In this document: positions 2,499-64,000 of the stretch, in pieces
How the letters are laid out: the number at the start of each line of letters is the position of its first letter
How positions within the stretch are numbered: the stretch's first letter is position 1
Assembly (NCBI GenBank): GCA_913058345.1
Contig: CAJXQR010000006.1
Coordinates: 62,001-126,000, forward strand
DNA length: 64,000 bases
Direction of reading: 5' to 3'
From: an uncultured Gammaproteobacteria bacterium
GTDB taxonomy: Bacteria > Pseudomonadota > Gammaproteobacteria > Pseudomonadales > Porticoccaceae
Notes under the pieces: generated by a model
What the model was told of the DNA's origin: nothing
Database searches by the model: none
The model's input: the letters and a program-made list of their open reading frames with translations, nothing else
Translations under genes and position numbers: made by a program

Positions 2499-3956
2499 TC
2501 AATTGCCTGTGGTTTTTTTCTCAGCGGTCGTTGAGATAGTCAACACATCTTCGCCGGTCTCTTCGCAAATAAGCTCTCGCTGTTGCTCTGCAGTGATCTC
2601 TTCACTGTGACTCAGTTTACTGCCCACCCATAGATCCATCATCTTTGCCGCGACCAGATCACCACTGACGTTGATGGCGGTGCGGCTCATATCAAGAATT
2701 CGATCTACGCCCATGATCAGCGCGATACCGGCAGCGGGAATGCCCACCGTGCTCAACACCATCGACAAAATAACAATACCGACACCGGGTGTTGCCGGTG
2801 CGCCAATAGAAGCACCTACTGACGTGAGCACAATTAATGCCATCCCTCCCAGGCCAATATCAATACCGAAAACCTGTGCCAGAAAAAGTGCTGCGACGCC
2901 CTGGTAAAGGGCTGTGCCATTCATGTTAATAGTGGCGCCCAGTGGAATAATAAATTGGGCCACTGATGGTCTTACCTTGAGTTTTTCCTCCGCTGTTTTA
3001 ATCGACAACGGCATCACGGCGGCGGAACTGGAGGTGGAAAACGCGAGCAGTAATACTTCTTTTACATCTTTGATGAAGGGTAGGGGCTTCTGTCGAGCAA
3101 AGACAAAAAGAACCACGAGGTAAACGCAAAACATCAGTAACAAACCGAATAGAACGGTACCCACGTAGACCGCCATACCCAACAAGGCGTCGAGACCGAG
3201 TTTCGCGGTCAGCTGGGCGAGCAGACCAAACACCGCTATGGGTGCCAGCCGCATCGCCCAACTTACGACGGTCATACAGACTTCCTGCAGCGAGCCCATG
3301 AGGTCGAGCAGCGGTTTAGCCTGCGCGGGCACCATCATCACCAGTGCGACACCTACCACCATGGCGAAAATTACCACCTGTAGCATATTATTTTCGACCA
3401 TGGAGGTCAGTGGATTGGAGGGAAGCAGCGTGATGACTTTTTGCGGCAGCTCATACAGATTAAGCGCTTCTGGTGCTATTGCGCCAATTGTTGCAGGAGC
3501 ACCCAGGGTGGCTTGTAGCGCCTGGCTGTCAATATAGGTGCCGGGTTTTATGAGCGATGCTACCGTTAATCCAATAATAATGGCCAGGGCTGTGGTAACG
3601 ATAAAAAATAGCACCGCACGTAAACCAATTTTACGCAGTTGTTCCAGGTCTTCCGTGGCCGCCAGGCCGCGGATGATGGAGGCAAACACCAGGGGTATGA
3701 CGATCATTTGAATTAAGGCAAGAAACAGCTTGCCGGGAAAAGCCAGCCAGTCGCTGGCAGTGGCGGCCGTCGCGGGATCCACCCAGCCAACGCTGGGGCC
3801 AATAATAATGCCCAGGCTAATACCCAGCACCATGCCCACCATCACCTGCAGCCACAGACGGCCACGAATGAGGGATTGCAGATAGGTGTTGAGATATTTT
3901 AGAGAGCGGGGATAAAGCACATCCAGCGCAAGGATCTTTTCTTTTTTTCCCACCAT
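2499..3956 (-). CDS. Dicarboxylate/amino acid:cation symporter (DctA/GltP-type)
   Basis: An inner-membrane secondary transporter of the sodium/proton:dicarboxylate symporter (SDF/DAACS) family, importing C4-dicarboxylates or acidic amino acids. Multiple hydrophobic helices are visible, with the hairpin motif STSSSAAVMPLSIK, the NMNGTALYQG motif of TM7 and the terminal DRILDMSRTAINVSGD segment of TM8/HP2. I chose the ATG at 3956 (485 residues): it has an AAGGA sequence nine bases upstream, whereas a start at 4031 would add 25 non-conserved residues. It lies on the same strand after fumC and acnA, with a gap of about 100 bases, which suits uptake of malate, fumarate or succinate feeding the TCA cycle. 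Substrate choice within the family is not decided by the sequence I can see. Confidence 0.9.
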   Translation of the reverse strand: MVGKKEKILALDVLYPRSLKYLNTYLQSLIRGRLWLQVMVGMVLGISLGIIIGPSVGWVDPATAATASDWLAFPGKLFLALIQMIVIPLVFASIIRGLAATEDLEQLRKIGLRAVLFFIVTTALAIIIGLTVASLIKPGTYIDSQALQATLGAPATIGAIAPEALNLYELPQKVITLLPSNPLTSMVENNMLQVVIFAMVVGVALVMMVPAQAKPLLDLMGSLQEVCMTVVSWAMRLAPIAVFGLLAQLTAKLGLDALLGMAVYVGTVLFGLLLMFCVYLVVLFVFARQKPLPFIKDVKEVLLLAFSTSSSAAVMPLSIKTAEEKLKVRPSVAQFIIPLGATINMNGTALYQGVAALFLAQVFGIDIGLGGMALIVLTSVGASIGAPATPGVGIVILSMVLSTVGIPAAGIALIMGVDRILDMSRTAINVSGDLVAAKMMDLWVGSKLSHSEEITAEQQRELICEETGEDVLTISTTAEKKTTGN

Positions 3957-4059
3957 GATTTTAATTCCTTTTTGCAGAGCGTAGCCTGACATAGCTTGTA
4001 CGGTCGAGCCGCCAGCCATCCTGTGTCGCAAAGGGTCTCATTAAATTAAAGATCTTCGT

Positions 4060-5463
4060 TTAATTACCAGGACTCAACATTAGTGCAGGGTCGATGAGCT
4101 GGTCGACCTCATTCGCGGACAAGAATTTCAATTCCAGTATCGCGGCTTTGATACTAAGGTTTTTTTCTAAGGCCAGCTTTGCCGCAGTCGCGGCTTTATC
4201 GTATCCAATAACAGGTGACAGTGCCGTGACGAGCATCAATGAGCGATCAACATTTCTTGCTAATTGTTGATCATTTGCTTGCAGCCCTTCGATACAATTT
4301 TTGGCAAAGCTCTGCATGCCATCCGACAGTAAATTGAGGGATTCGAGCAGATTATGGATGATAAGCGGCTTAAACACATTGAGTTCCAAATGGCCCTGGC
4401 TGCCCGCCACACCAATGGTTGTATCGTTGCCCATGACCTGTGCAGCGATCATCGTGAGTGCTTCCGTCTGGGTGGGGTTCACCTTGCCCGGCATAATGGA
4501 GCTCCCCGGTTCGTTTGCTGGCAGAAGTAACTCTCCCAGGCCGCACCTTGGTCCGCTGCCCAGTAGGCGTAAATCGTTGGCGATTTTAAACAGCGCTGTT
4601 GCTAATAGGCGCAAACGGCCGTGTAGATCAACCAGCGCATCATGGGCGCTGCTGGCCATGAATTTATTAGGGGCGGAATAAAAGTCGATACCGCTGAGTT
4701 GACTAATTTTACTGGCGACATCGGCCGCCCAGGTTTCGGGGGTATTGAGGCCGGTACCGACTGCACTGCCTCCGAGAGCAAGCATTTTTAAAGACATCTG
4801 CGTTGCACTGATTTGGGTGCGGGCATAATCAATTTGGCTGACGTAGCCGCTGAACTCTTGACCCAAGGTGATGGGGGCGGCATCCATCAAATGGGTGCGC
4901 CCGATTTTGATCAGCGAATGAAACTCCTGGGCTTTTTGTACGAGTGCATCGTGTAATACATTGAGGGCAGGCAGTAATTCTTGCTGTAATCGTGACAGCG
5001 CACTGACATGCATCACGGTGGGGAAAACGTCGTTGGATGACTGGGAGCAATTGACGTGATCGTTTGGGTGGACAGGGTGTTTTGCGCCTCGGTCTGCACC
5101 CATGAGTTCATTCGCGCGATTTGCGATGACTTCATTAAAATTCATATTGGTCTGGGTGCCGCTGCCGGTTTGCCACACCACCAGCGGGAACTGCTGGTCA
5201 TGTTGCCCGGCAATAATTTCATCGCAGGCCTGACAAATGGCATCGCAGAGGGGGGCGGGCAGGGTGCCTAGATCCTGGTTGCATAAAGCAGCGGCTTTTT
5301 TTACCAGCGCGAAACTGCGAATAAATTCACTGGGAAAGGTCTGGTGGCCAATATCGAAATTAGCGAGGGCGCGCTGGGTTTGGGCACCCCATAAGGCACT
5401 ATGGGGTACATTGACCGTTCCCAGGCTGTCGCTTTCCTGTCGTGAGTCCGTGGCGACGGGCAC
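4060..5463 (-). CDS. fumC: Class II fumarate hydratase
   Basis: Fumarase C, the iron-independent homotetrameric enzyme that interconverts fumarate and L-malate in the TCA cycle. At 467 residues it has the usual length. The three conserved regions of the fumarase/aspartase superfamily are present: GSGTQTNMNFNEV, the GRTHLMDA segment with the catalytic-region His, and the mobile loop GSSIMPGKVNP with the active-site Ser. The start is a GTG at 5463 preceded by GGGAG seven bases upstream. It begins 11 bases after the aconitase stop on the same strand, so acnA and fumC are very likely co-transcribed. The absence of an Fe-S cluster makes it the form typically used under oxidative stress or iron shortage. 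Confidence 0.97.
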   Translation of the reverse strand: MPVATDSRQESDSLGTVNVPHSALWGAQTQRALANFDIGHQTFPSEFIRSFALVKKAAALCNQDLGTLPAPLCDAICQACDEIIAGQHDQQFPLVVWQTGSGTQTNMNFNEVIANRANELMGADRGAKHPVHPNDHVNCSQSSNDVFPTVMHVSALSRLQQELLPALNVLHDALVQKAQEFHSLIKIGRTHLMDAAPITLGQEFSGYVSQIDYARTQISATQMSLKMLALGGSAVGTGLNTPETWAADVASKISQLSGIDFYSAPNKFMASSAHDALVDLHGRLRLLATALFKIANDLRLLGSGPRCGLGELLLPANEPGSSIMPGKVNPTQTEALTMIAAQVMGNDTTIGVAGSQGHLELNVFKPLIIHNLLESLNLLSDGMQSFAKNCIEGLQANDQQLARNVDRSLMLVTALSPVIGYDKAATAAKLALEKNLSIKAAILELKFLSANEVDQLIDPALMLSPGN

Positions 5464-5474
5464 AGTTATTCTCC

Positions 5475-8129
5475 CTATTTAATTTGATCCAGGACGTAAT
5501 TCAAAATACCGCCCGCACGAAAATAATTGAGCTCATTGTCGGTATCGATTCGGCAGAGCAAACTGCATGTCACCTGTTCCCCGTCACTGCGAGTTACCGT
5601 GAGAGTGAGGTCTTTGCCGGGCTGGAGTGATTTTATACCGGTGATGGAAATGGTCTCACTGCCATCGAGTTTGAGGGTTTTACGGTTATCCAGACCCTGG
5701 AACTGTAAAGGGAGGACGCCCATACCAATCAGGTTTGAGCGGTGTATACGCTCAAAGCTTTCGGCTATCACGGCTTGTACGCCGAGTAAGCGCGTGCCTT
5801 TGGCAGCCCAGTCGCGACTAGAGCCCGTGCCGTATTCTTTGCCGGCAAATACGATCAGTGGTGTATTGTTTTTCTGGGAGCGCATTGCTGAATCATAAAT
5901 AGGCATGGGCTCACCGTCGGGAACTGAACGGGTGAAGCCGCCTTCAATGCCGGGCACCATCTCATTTTTAATACGCACATTGGCAAAAGTGCCTCGCATC
6001 ATCACCTCGTGGTTGCCGCGGCGTGATCCATAGGAATTAAAATCTTTAACGGCCACACCATGTTCTTGAAGATACTGCCCGGCGGGACTGTCGGGGGCGA
6101 TGGAGCCGGCCGGTGAGATATGGTCGGTGGTGACAGAGTCTCCAAACAGCGCGAGAATACGAGCGTTGTCGATGTCGTCAGTAGCCTGGCGTGCCGCACT
6201 AAAAAACGGTGGATGCTGAATATAGGTGGAAGTGGGCGACCACTGATAGGTTTTTTCGGGTGGTATTTTAATACTTTTCCAGGCGTCATCACCGCTGAAT
6301 ACGTCGGCATAGCGGCTTTGGAACATACTGGCGCTGACCTCTGCGACCGCTGCGGCCACTTCGGTGTTACTAGGCCACAGGTCTTTCAGGTAAATATCCT
6401 GGCCATTGGCGCCCTTACCAATGGGGTCCGTCGTGAGGTTAATGCGTGTAGTGCCCGCCAGTGCGAAGGCAACGACTAAAGGTGGCGACACCAACCAGTT
6501 AGCGCGCACTTTGTTGTGGATACGGCCTTCGAAATTACGGTTGCCTGACAGCACCGATGATACGGTTAAATCCCCGGCTTCGATGGCAGCGTCGATTTCT
6601 GCTGGTAGTGGGCCCGAGTTGCCTATACACGTGGTGCAGCCGTAACCCACCAGGTTAAAGCCCAGTTGGTCAAGGTAGGTCTGCAGGCCCGCTTTGATTA
6701 AATAATCAGTGACTACTTTTGAACCCGGCGCGAGGGAGGATTTAACCCAGGGCTTGCGCTGTAAGCCTAAGTCGATGGCTTTTTTGGCCACCAGGCCGGC
6801 GGCCATCATCACGGAGGGGTTCGAGGTGTTGGTACAAGAGGTGATGGCAGCAATCACAACATCACCATGACCCAGCTGGTAGTCGGTGCCTGCTACGTTA
6901 ATCTCTGTGTCTGGCGCTTTCTGGTCGGCAAGTATCTCTTCCATTTTCTCGTGAAGTTGTGACAGTGCAACGCGATCTTGCGGCCTCTTTGGTCCTGCAA
7001 CGCTTGGGACGACCTGGCTGAGATCTAAAGCAAGGGCGCTATTAAAAACAGGGTCAGGGGTATTACTGTCGCGCCACAAGCCCTGAGCTTTGGCGTAGGC
7101 CTCTACCAGTTCAATGGTGTGGCTGTCACGCCCGGTTAAGTTGAGATAGTTGAGTGTTTCCTGGTCAATGGTAAAAAAACCACAGGTCGCGCCGTATTCA
7201 GGCGCCATATTTGCAATGGTTGCTCGGTCTGCCAGGGGTAAGTGGTCGAGTCCATCGCCATAAAATTCGACAAATTTTCCCACCACGCCATGGGCACGTA
7301 ACATCTCGACCACGGTGAGTACCAGATCGGTTGCGGTCACGCCTTCTTTTAATTTGCCCGAAAACTTAAAACCCACAACGTCTGGAATCAGCATAGTGAC
7401 CGGCTGACCGAGCATCGCTGCTTCAGCCTCAATGCCGCCCACGCCCCAACCCAATACGCCCAGGGCATTGATCATGGTGGTATGACTGTCGGTGCCAACA
7501 AGGGTATCGGGATAGGCATACTTTTCCCCGTCGACTGTGTTTGTCCAGACTGATTTGGCGAGATACTCCAAGTTGACTTGATGGCATATGCCGGTTCCGG
7601 GGGGCACAACTCTAAAATTATCGAAGGCAGTTTGCCCCCAGCGCAGGAATTCGTAGCGTTCTGCATTGCGGGCCATTTCGATAGCGACATTTTCCTCGTA
7701 AGCGGAAGGCTGGGCGAATTTATCGACCATGACGGAATGGTCAATGACCAGGTCAACGGGTGTCAGTGGGTTGATTAATGCAGGGTCTTTGTTTTGCGCA
7801 ACGAGAGCATCGCGCATGGCTGCCAGGTCGACTACCCCCGGCACGCCGGTAAAATCTTGCATCAATACGCGTGCTGGACGAAAGGCTATTTCTCGCTCGA
7901 CCTCGGTCGTTGCTGTGTGATTAGCCAGGGCGATAATGTCTTCTTTGGTGACGCTATTGCCATCTTCACCGCGCAGTAAATTTTCAAGTAGCACTTTGAG
8001 AGAGTTGGGAAGCTTTTCTAGCTCAAGCAGTCCTTCGTTAGCAAGTTTCTGTAGGCTAAAGTAGTGATAGTGGTCGTTGCCTACACTGAGCTGAGCTTTT
8101 GTATTAAGACTATTGTTGCTATTGTGCAT
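5475..8129 (-). CDS. acnA: Aconitate hydratase A
   Basis: Aconitase of the AcnA/IRP1 class, 884 residues, converting citrate to isocitrate in the cytosol. The three cluster-ligand cysteines lie in the motifs [11 protein letters not shown] and [15 protein letters not shown]. The C-terminal swivel domain carries the [14 protein letters not shown] and [13 protein letters not shown] segments. The ATG at 8129 has GGGAG upstream at good spacing. It leads an apparent operon acnA-fumC, with the dicarboxylate symporter further downstream. Having AcnA rather than only AcnB suits a stationary-phase or oxidative-stress role, by analogy with enterobacteria. Confidence 0.97.
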
Positions 8130-62281: not shown

Positions 62282-62310
62282 TTAACAATGTGGCATGAGA
62301 ATTGTATGTT
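62282..62310 (+). promoter_or_regulatory. Porin leader promoter, sigma-70 or sigma-54
   Basis: Two readings fit the same place. TTAACA (62282-62287) and TATGTT (62305-62310) are 17 bases apart, a moderate sigma-70 promoter. TGGCATGAGAATTGTAT (62291-62307) has GG and GT ten bases apart, a sigma-54 match weakened by T in place of the -12 C. Both predict a start near 62316. Confidence 0.5.
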
Positions 62311-62317
62311 TGTTGGT

Positions 62318-62406
62318 TAGCGGATGTGTCAAGTTGTCAAACCGTCCGCTATCTGGGCAATGGAGCCCATAGGTCACCCCCTCCCGTGGCCTATGGGCTT
62401 TTTTTT
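62318..62406 (+). promoter_or_regulatory. Porin leader attenuator with hexaloop hairpin
   Basis: Three elements lie between the promoter and the porin. A hairpin TAGCGGA/TCCGCTA is at 62318-62324 with 62345-62351. A five-pair stem TGGGC/GCCCA (62354-62358 with 62365-62369) closes the six-base loop AATGGA, with A at position 1 and G at position 4. An intrinsic terminator AGCCCATAGG/CCTATGGGCT (62364-62373 with 62390-62399) is followed by eight T. The hexaloop stem and the terminator share bases 62364-62369 and so exclude each other, as in ANTAR-controlled leaders. It could also end a free RNA of about 90 bases. Confidence 0.7.
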
Positions 62407-62484
62407 GCCTTGATTTTGCAAATTCAGTCAGCAGCGTTAGCCGCAATAGTATTGCCTGCTGTTCTTAATCCGAGGAGAGTCCGA

Positions 62485-63711
62485 ATGTTGAGCCGTTCAT
62501 TGAATATCACCCCAGCTGCGTTAGGTATTGTTGTACTGGGCTTGTCTGTATCAACACTGGCGAGTGCTCAACCGCTCGCTGATAGTATTAGTCAAGCGAT
62601 TGATGGAGGCGATGTTGCCTTAAACCTGCGTTACCGCTATGAGTACGTTGATCAGGACGGAGCATCAGAAGATGCTGATGCCTCCACTCTGAGGTCTCGA
62701 ATTACCCTGAAATCAGGTGTGGTCAATGGCTTTATGGGCCTGGTTGAAGTCGATAATGTGAGCTATATCGGTAACGATAATTTTAACAATACTGAAAATG
62801 GGAAAACAAACTATCCTGTCGTTGCAGATCCTGATTATACCGAGGTGAATCAGGCTTTTATTCGTTATGCTTTTGACGATAACAATAAGGCAACCCTGGG
62901 TCGCCAGCGTATTAACCACAGTGGGCAGCGTTTTCTCGGCGGTGTTGGCTGGCGTCAAAATGAACAAACCTTTGACGCGGCGAGATTTACTGTCTCACCT
63001 TTGAAGGGCTTAACGGTCGACTACAGTTATATTTGGGATGTTAACCGTATCTTTGGCCCTGAAGGGTCCGATGCCGATTTTGAGGGTGACAGCCACGCAC
63101 TTATTGCTACCTATAAAATTGCTGATGGCCACACCCTCTCTGGTTTTAGTTACCTACTCGACCTTGAAGAAGCTCCGGCCCTGTCGAGCAGCACTTACGG
63201 CCTGGAATACACAGGCGGGTTTGCTCTCAGGGACGGTGTGAGCCTTGGTGTTAACCTATCTTATGCTGAACAAAGCGATTACAAAGATAGTCCTCTCGAC
63301 TATGACGCTGGTTATTACCTTGCAGAGCTAGCCGTTAAAACCAAGCCAGTGACCGTGGCATTGGGGTACGAAGTACTTGAGAGCGATAATGGCATTGGCT
63401 TTAAAACGCCTTTGGCAACACTGCATAAATTTCAGGGTTTCGCCGATAAATTTTTGGTAACTCCTGCTGGTGGGATTGAAGACACCTACGTAAAAGTTGC
63501 CACTAAAATAGCCGGTGTCAAACTCATCGCCTTCTATCACGATTTTGAAGCGGAAACAGGTGGCATGGATTACGGTAGTGAATTCGATTTCATCGCGGCG
63601 TATAAATTTAGCAAGAATTACAGCCTGTCGTTCAAATATGCCGCCTATGAGGCCGATGATTTTTCTACCGATACAGATAAAGCCTGGTTAATGGTGACAG
63701 CAGCGTTTTAG
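62485..63711 (+). CDS. Outer-membrane porin-like beta-barrel protein
   Basis: A 408-residue outer-membrane protein. The signal peptide is MLSRSLNITPAALGIVVLGL with cleavage near ASA-QPLA. The mature part is made of alternating beta strands with many aromatic belts, and the last residue is Phe (AWLMVTAAF), the usual outer-membrane targeting signal. It resembles the alginate-export/DcaP-like porins in layout, but I cannot assign the solute. The ATG at 62485 has AGGAG seven bases upstream; the frame reaches further left but that part is the attenuated leader. A response regulator starts 166 bases later. Confidence 0.85.
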   Translation: MLSRSLNITPAALGIVVLGLSVSTLASAQPLADSISQAIDGGDVALNLRYRYEYVDQDGASEDADASTLRSRITLKSGVVNGFMGLVEVDNVSYIGNDNFNNTENGKTNYPVVADPDYTEVNQAFIRYAFDDNNKATLGRQRINHSGQRFLGGVGWRQNEQTFDAARFTVSPLKGLTVDYSYIWDVNRIFGPEGSDADFEGDSHALIATYKIADGHTLSGFSYLLDLEEAPALSSSTYGLEYTGGFALRDGVSLGVNLSYAEQSDYKDSPLDYDAGYYLAELAVKTKPVTVALGYEVLESDNGIGFKTPLATLHKFQGFADKFLVTPAGGIEDTYVKVATKIAGVKLIAFYHDFEAETGGMDYGSEFDFIAAYKFSKNYSLSFKYAAYEADDFSTDTDKAWLMVTAAF

Positions 63712-63877: not shown

Positions 63878-64000
63878 TTGGATCTCTCTAGTAACGATGA
63901 AGTTCGCGTGATGCTGGTTGATGATCACCCCCAGCGTGCAGCCATGGTCGAGCAGGCACTCAAAGTTTGTGGGTTTCATATTGTCGCAATGTTGACCAGC
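63878..64000 (+). CDS. Response regulator N-terminus, possibly ANTAR (NasT-like), 3'-truncated
   Basis: The window ends within this gene. The visible 41 residues form the start of a receiver domain: VMLVDDHPQRAAMVEQALKV, then CGFHIVAMLTS. The VDDxxxRAxxxxxAL pattern followed by G-F/Y-x-V-V/I-A is the usual beginning of NasT/AmiR-type ANTAR antiterminators, but the ANTAR domain itself would lie beyond the edge. Possible starts are TTG 63878, GTG 63908 and ATG 63911; AGGGTGG upstream favours the TTG. An RNA-binding antiterminator would fit the attenuator in front of the porin. Confidence 0.65.
   Translation, partial: MDLSSNDEVRVMLVDDHPQRAAMVEQALKVCGFHIVAMLTS

Follow-up and report, generated by a model that had tools for sequence, protein, structure and literature searches.

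The window, that is, the whole stretch of 64,000 nucleotides analysed here (contig C6, 62001–126000), ends 123 bases into a regulator gene, nasT, the remainder of which was read past the edge. On the forward strand, the genes follow in the order porin, nasT, nasS, a second ANTAR leader, nrtA, nrtB and a double nrtC-like gene; the gene upstream of the porin leader lies on the opposite strand. The features of the locus are summarized in Table 1. The region 62282–62484 delimited by an earlier note on this DNA, which was made from the window alone and read the porin leader as an ANTAR-controlled attenuator, covers the promoter as well. The start of a response regulator that it had seen 3′ of the porin (63878 on) is real, and beyond position 64000 the protein ends in an ANTAR domain (PF03861, over the cut-off and the only copy in the genome), which takes the place of a DNA-binding output domain. 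As nasT adjoins nasS, encoding an NrtA-like sensor, inside a nitrate gene cluster, the two genes constitute a NasS-NasT pair. Further downstream, NrtA is assigned to NMT1_2 (Pfam), and the double nrtC-like ATPase scores over the ntrCD cut-off (NCBIfam).

Table 1. Features of the porin leader and of the adjoining nitrate genes.
Feature	Position	Strand	Description
Sigma-54-like promoter TGGCATGAGAATTGTA (–24/–12)	62291..62306	+	direct sequence; same-spacing sites in nearly all orthologous leaders
5′ hairpin, large loop	62319..62350	+	AGCGGAUG (62319–62326) pairs with CGUCCGCU (62343–62350); no canonical P1 hexaloop
P2, predicted ANTAR recognition hairpin UGGGC[AAUGGA]GCCCA	62354..62369	+	5 bp; loop 62359–62364, A at position 1 and G at position 4
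Intrinsic terminator	62363..62406	+	15-bp stem 62363–62377 / 62386–62400; loop 62378–62385, 8 nt; U tract 62399–62406, 8 U
Shine-Dalgarno-like GAGGAGAG of the porin gene	62472..62479	+	direct sequence
Porin	62485..63711	+	408 aa; PF13372 (Alginate_exp), E 1.8e-11, over the cut-off; predicted Occ/OprD-like beta-barrel
nasT	63878..64501 (63878..64000 in the window)	+	207 aa; receiver and ANTAR domains (Pfam)
nasS-like gene	64488–65699 (outside the window)	+	NMT1_2 (Pfam); overlaps nasT by 14 bases
Second leader with terminator, ahead of nrtA	about 65885–65990 (outside the window)	+	

Based on the position of the sigma-54-like element, transcription is predicted to start near 62317. The leader as a whole folds into a structure more stable than all 200 of 200 shuffled sequences (z –4.1), the terminator having a folding energy of –27.4 kcal/mol, and P2, folded alone, –7.7 kcal/mol. 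The 3′ arm of P2 is at the same time the beginning of the 5′ arm of the terminator (common bases 62363–62369), hence the two structures are mutually exclusive. Thus, both structural claims of the earlier note, that the terminator arm also forms a hairpin with the AATGGA hexaloop (A at position 1, G at position 4) and that this hairpin and the terminator cannot coexist, are borne out by folding. The 5′ hairpin with a big loop, described in the same place, is also present; it varies among orthologues, is not conserved as such, and its position shows no enrichment of A1/G4 hexaloops. Scanning of the window and the leaders with Rfam yielded no match to an ANTAR family.

Orthologues of the porin have been identified in 37 of 58 relatives, and 30 porin loci were taken for comparison. 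An A1/G4 hexaloop is present in the leaders of all 14 porins with an adjoining nasT; under the strict rule, requiring both the hexaloop and the terminator, this holds for 13 of these 14, and for none of the ten porins in genomes without an ANTAR protein (Fisher p about 5e-7 for 14/14 vs 0/10, the genomes not being independent). Three of these ten genomes belong to the same genus and encode porins that are 69–75% identical; in these the attenuator is absent, while a sigma-54-like element near the start codon is retained. In one genome (G052) the ANTAR gene is found on another contig, and the module is present at the porin (L040).

A wider sample comprised 80 named loci obtained by a search with the NasT alignment, the closest of the loci fetched by name being Porticoccaceae metagenome bins. 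The porin adjoins nasT in 60 of them, and in 53 of the 56 readable porin leaders we observe an A1/G4 hexaloop with an overlapping terminator (strict rule), each other pair of letters at loop positions 1 and 4 occurring in zero to three leaders. As the site finder demanded A1 and G4, their invariance in its alignment is by construction, and it is these letter-pair counts (53/56 vs 0–3) that constitute the test of conservation, with the reservation that orthologous leaders are related and the counts are not independent events. Two further porin leaders (L126, L132) have the hexaloop and a poor U tract, and the leader of Halioglobus pacificus (L113) breaks the loop rule, having GGC[AATACT]GCC with A at loop position 4. 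The pairing is supported by covariation: in the terminator 95% of cells are paired, with 80 doubly changed cells compared to 25 in shuffles, and in P2, whose 5′ arm lies outside the terminator, there are 11–12 doubly changed cells compared to 4–6. Hence, the hairpin, with A1, G4 and at least 3 bp, is conserved in orthologues, and the hexaloop bases, whose conservation the earlier note had made decisive, are kept in porin leaders beside nasT and absent in ANTAR-less genomes.

These elements recur in unchanged order in the leader of nrtA in this cluster, as TGGCATGTATTTTGTA, GGC[AACGAA]GCC and a terminator. A covariance model of P2 and the terminator, built with this porin leader excluded, matches the window at 62354–62408 (E 3.9e-9) and finds two strong sites in the genome, that of the porin and, at 9.9e-8, that of nrtA, ahead of a third match at 0.0099; the training set of the model includes close orthologues of both the porin and the nrtA leaders, among them one of the porin leader, with the porins 92% identical. 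Scanning of the genome with a simpler pattern, the hexaloop followed by a U tract, produced 11 matches, of which the porin and nrtA leaders alone are taken as real; the sole other match inspected (C9) lies inside a coding sequence. The nirB-nasA genes (contig C7, outside the window) have no hexaloop leader, either by eye or by the pattern, and therefore the regulon is partial. The ANTAR step in this organism seems to guard nitrate uptake rather than reduction, nirB-nasA having no attenuator.

Taken with this architecture, the NasS-NasT neighborhood makes us confident that the porin leader acts as a transcription attenuator of the NasS-NasT (ANTAR) type, responding to nitrate and built with a single hexaloop. 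No second A1/G4 hexaloop, as expected of a dual-hexaloop leader, was found in the leader of this porin, so the module is classed as a single-hexaloop variant. Among the leaders of this clade, A1/G4 hexaloops upstream of P2 occur at the background level (7 of 87 leaders, with other letter pairs in 2–9), and with a fixed linker rule, an upstream hexaloop within 16 nt of P2, only 4 of 97 leaders are retained, none of the 97 if a stem of at least 4 bp is required. As a positive control, 30 ANTAR loci from other Gammaproteobacteria were obtained by a class-wide draw of genomes, and 18 leaders were scored. By the same rule, 13 of these 18 have a P1 located 3–16 nt ahead of P2, the stems being strong, as in GGCAAGCC[AACGGC]GGTTTGCC, so that a failure of the search as the cause of the missing P1 is rejected. 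The earlier note had been right that a canonical second hexaloop is missing, and wrong to count this as a weakness: the absence is a conserved feature of the clade (4/97 vs 13/18). The dual-hexaloop leaders of other Gammaproteobacteria (L154, L156, L158, L174 and others) resemble those considered here in having NasT-like regulators, mostly together with nitrate-transport genes, but differ in the strong P1, which the Porticoccaceae–Halioglobus–Microbulbifer leaders do not have.

The textbook systems would not lead one to expect an attenuator of this form: in vivo, EutV depends on both hexaloops (PMC3369931), and the binding of NasR to a lone P2 is about 12-fold weaker (PMC7496416). On the other hand, in the EutV–RNA structure the dimer contacts a single hexaloop, and the minimal binding motif has been redefined as one hexaloop; the same authors retained P1 as a recruitment hairpin and called for more work on single-hexaloop sites (PMC8934654). 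A second site could, in principle, be hidden in the 5′ part of the leader; either the hairpin with the large loop or a P1 that is degenerate or unpaired, e.g., GACAUUGCA, would then serve as P1 of an ordinary dual-site ANTAR attenuator. A weak GAC[AUUGCA]GUC 5 nt before P2 in three porin leaders (L073, L077, L085), as well as other hairpins at the P1 position in several leaders, would agree with that. Still, we consider it unlikely, given the background-level counts of upstream hexaloops compared to the control leaders, and given that several Microbulbifer leaders, where about 5 nt separate the predicted start from P2, have no space for P1. We rather favor, as the probable though by no means certain explanation, that in Porticoccaceae, Halioglobus, Parahaliea, Microbulbifer and their kin the attenuator has been reduced to one hexaloop, with NasT acting on P2 alone, in some species few nucleotides from the start of the transcript.

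The nearest solved relative of NasT is the response regulator 6wsh/6ww6, which we take to be EutV, and NasS comes closest to NrtA and to NrtC regulatory domains. In the 13 aligned receiver sequences D15 is present in all, and D16 and D60 in nearly all, which could indicate that NasT is phosphorylated by an unlinked histidine kinase as part of a two-component system responding to a signal other than nitrate. However, none of the 13 receivers has the lysine that is expected at the end of beta-5, and nasS lies directly 3′ of nasT, overlapping it, and is followed by the nitrate transporter genes, making this reading very improbable. The absence of the lysine is compatible with an AmiR-like pseudo-receiver and fits sequestration of NasT rather than its phosphorylation. 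Even less credible is that we are dealing with a simple terminator, or with an ErsA- or RybB-type sRNA ending at it, unconnected to NasT: the Rfam matches at 62313–62414 (ErsA, 32.3 bits, and RybB, 23.9 bits) are below the gathering thresholds of 50 and 40 bits, with zero matches at gathering, and are judged to reflect terminator resemblance and not membership in these families, the gene upstream is encoded on the opposite strand, nrtA is preceded by the same module, and the loop bases, the P2 pairing and the terminator position track the presence of NasT and are missing in ANTAR-less genomes.

The attenuator may operate as follows, by analogy with the homologous systems. When nitrogen is limiting, transcription would be initiated at the predicted start by sigma-54 polymerase, probably together with NtrC. 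With no nitrate present, NasS would hold NasT, the terminator would form, and transcription would end before the porin gene. In the presence of nitrate or nitrite, NasS would let go of NasT, whose ANTAR domain would bind the AAUGGA hexaloop and hold the 5′ arm of the terminator in P2, resulting in antitermination and read-through into porin-nasT-nasS. The same module before nrtABC would open the inner-membrane transporter simultaneously, so that nitrate entry through the outer and the inner membrane would respond together, with nasTS placed inside its own loop. Binding of NasT to a leader and nitrate-driven release of NasT from NasS are known from Paracoccus (PMC3795266), and nitrogen-limitation control at initiation of nitrate assimilation has been reported for Klebsiella (PMC5424462). 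NtrC-like dyads with at most two mismatches occur in 37 of 102 leaders and in 2 of 102 shuffled ones; upstream of the porin studied here no clear dyad was found, the best site having four mismatches. Together, the sigma-54-like sites and the family-wide NtrC-like dyads suggest nitrogen-limitation control at initiation.

No solved relative of the porin was found by sequence search. Its AlphaFold2 model (pLDDT 80.9) has OccAB4, OpdO, OccK7 and others as the nearest folds (TM about 0.6–0.7, 14–19% identity), and thus resembles Occ channels, while the Pfam call is Alginate_exp. Judging from the neighboring genes, we infer that nitrate may pass through this porin. As the porin belongs to the nas/nrt nitrate cluster, it extends the nitrate regulon by a step at the outer membrane and brings no new signal to ANTAR control. 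The suggestion that control of a porin extends ANTAR systems is corrected accordingly: the extension does not reach outside nitrate. Two dual-hexaloop leaders of other Gammaproteobacteria (L156, L174) are also located directly before porin homologues beside NasT-like regulators, and hence control of porins extends beyond the clade with single-hexaloop leaders. Among the papers searched, none was found that places a porin under ANTAR or NasT control.

Several features are shared with characterized systems. The NasS-NasT system of Paracoccus denitrificans and its nasA leader (PMC3795266, PMC5424462) likewise comprise a NasT ANTAR regulator, a NasS sensor, and hairpins controlling termination at nitrate genes, with NtrBC involved; its target is, however, the nasABGHC operon, and no report names a porin, whereas here the leaders are those of the porin and nrtABC, and seemingly not of nirB-nasA. 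In Klebsiella oxytoca (PMC7496416) an A1/G4 hexaloop hairpin of nasF also excludes an intrinsic terminator, with nitrate as the signal and Ntr control, but NasR is a one-component protein (NIT-ANTAR), nasF has both P1 and P2 hexaloops, and no porin target has been reported. EutV of Enterococcus faecalis (PMC3369931, PMC8934654) is a receiver-ANTAR protein acting where P2, with A1 and G4 in the loop, excludes the terminator; in contrast to the system described here, which has no canonical P1, it is phosphorylated by EutW and needs P1 with a fixed linker in vivo.

If the reduction to one hexaloop is true, this clade contradicts the view that ANTAR antitermination requires a recruitment hairpin, and bears on the question, open since PMC8934654, whether ANTAR sites with a single hexaloop work in natural systems, given the short time that termination allows. 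With dozens of leaders across the clade having P2 and a terminator and no P1, the recruitment-hairpin model becomes directly testable. Moreover, a porin adjoining nasT and preceded by the hexaloop GGC-AAYGNN-GCC and a U-tract terminator may be used as a marker, which points to a family of Occ-like porins as candidate channels for nitrate across the outer membrane of marine and other bacteria.

A number of leaders deviate from the common scheme. Two nrtA leaders (L076, L133) have GGGT[GATGTT]GCCC, with G at loop position 1, and, together with the Halioglobus pacificus porin leader, are natural loop exceptions that could be used to test which loop bases matter. In Microbulbifer loci (e.g., L117, L124) nasT itself is immediately preceded by a hexaloop leader, and the cluster's second leader precedes a gene for a NarK/MFS-like transporter instead of nrtA. 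Predicted transcripts of six porin leaders (L073, L077, L085, L101, L104, L110) start with (U)GACAUUG; near reverse complements of it, (G)CAAUGUC or UAAUGUC, are found in the nrtA leaders of three of these loci (L101, L104, L110), the sequence being conserved without conserved pairing. In the nirB-nasA region (L060:3598-3615 and 3658-6204) a sigma-54-like site is observed about 50 nt before nirB, with neither a hexaloop nor a terminator.

The terminator loop of the porin leader, CCCCUCCC, is partly complementary to the porin Shine-Dalgarno sequence, and C-rich terminator loops recur in close relatives; this complementarity could add translational control. Finally, six nrtA leaders (L126, L128, L132, L134, L135, L141) keep the hexaloop hairpin, but their downstream hairpin is not followed by a clear U tract; this suggests that these genes are controlled in a different way, such as by pausing, Rho or translation.
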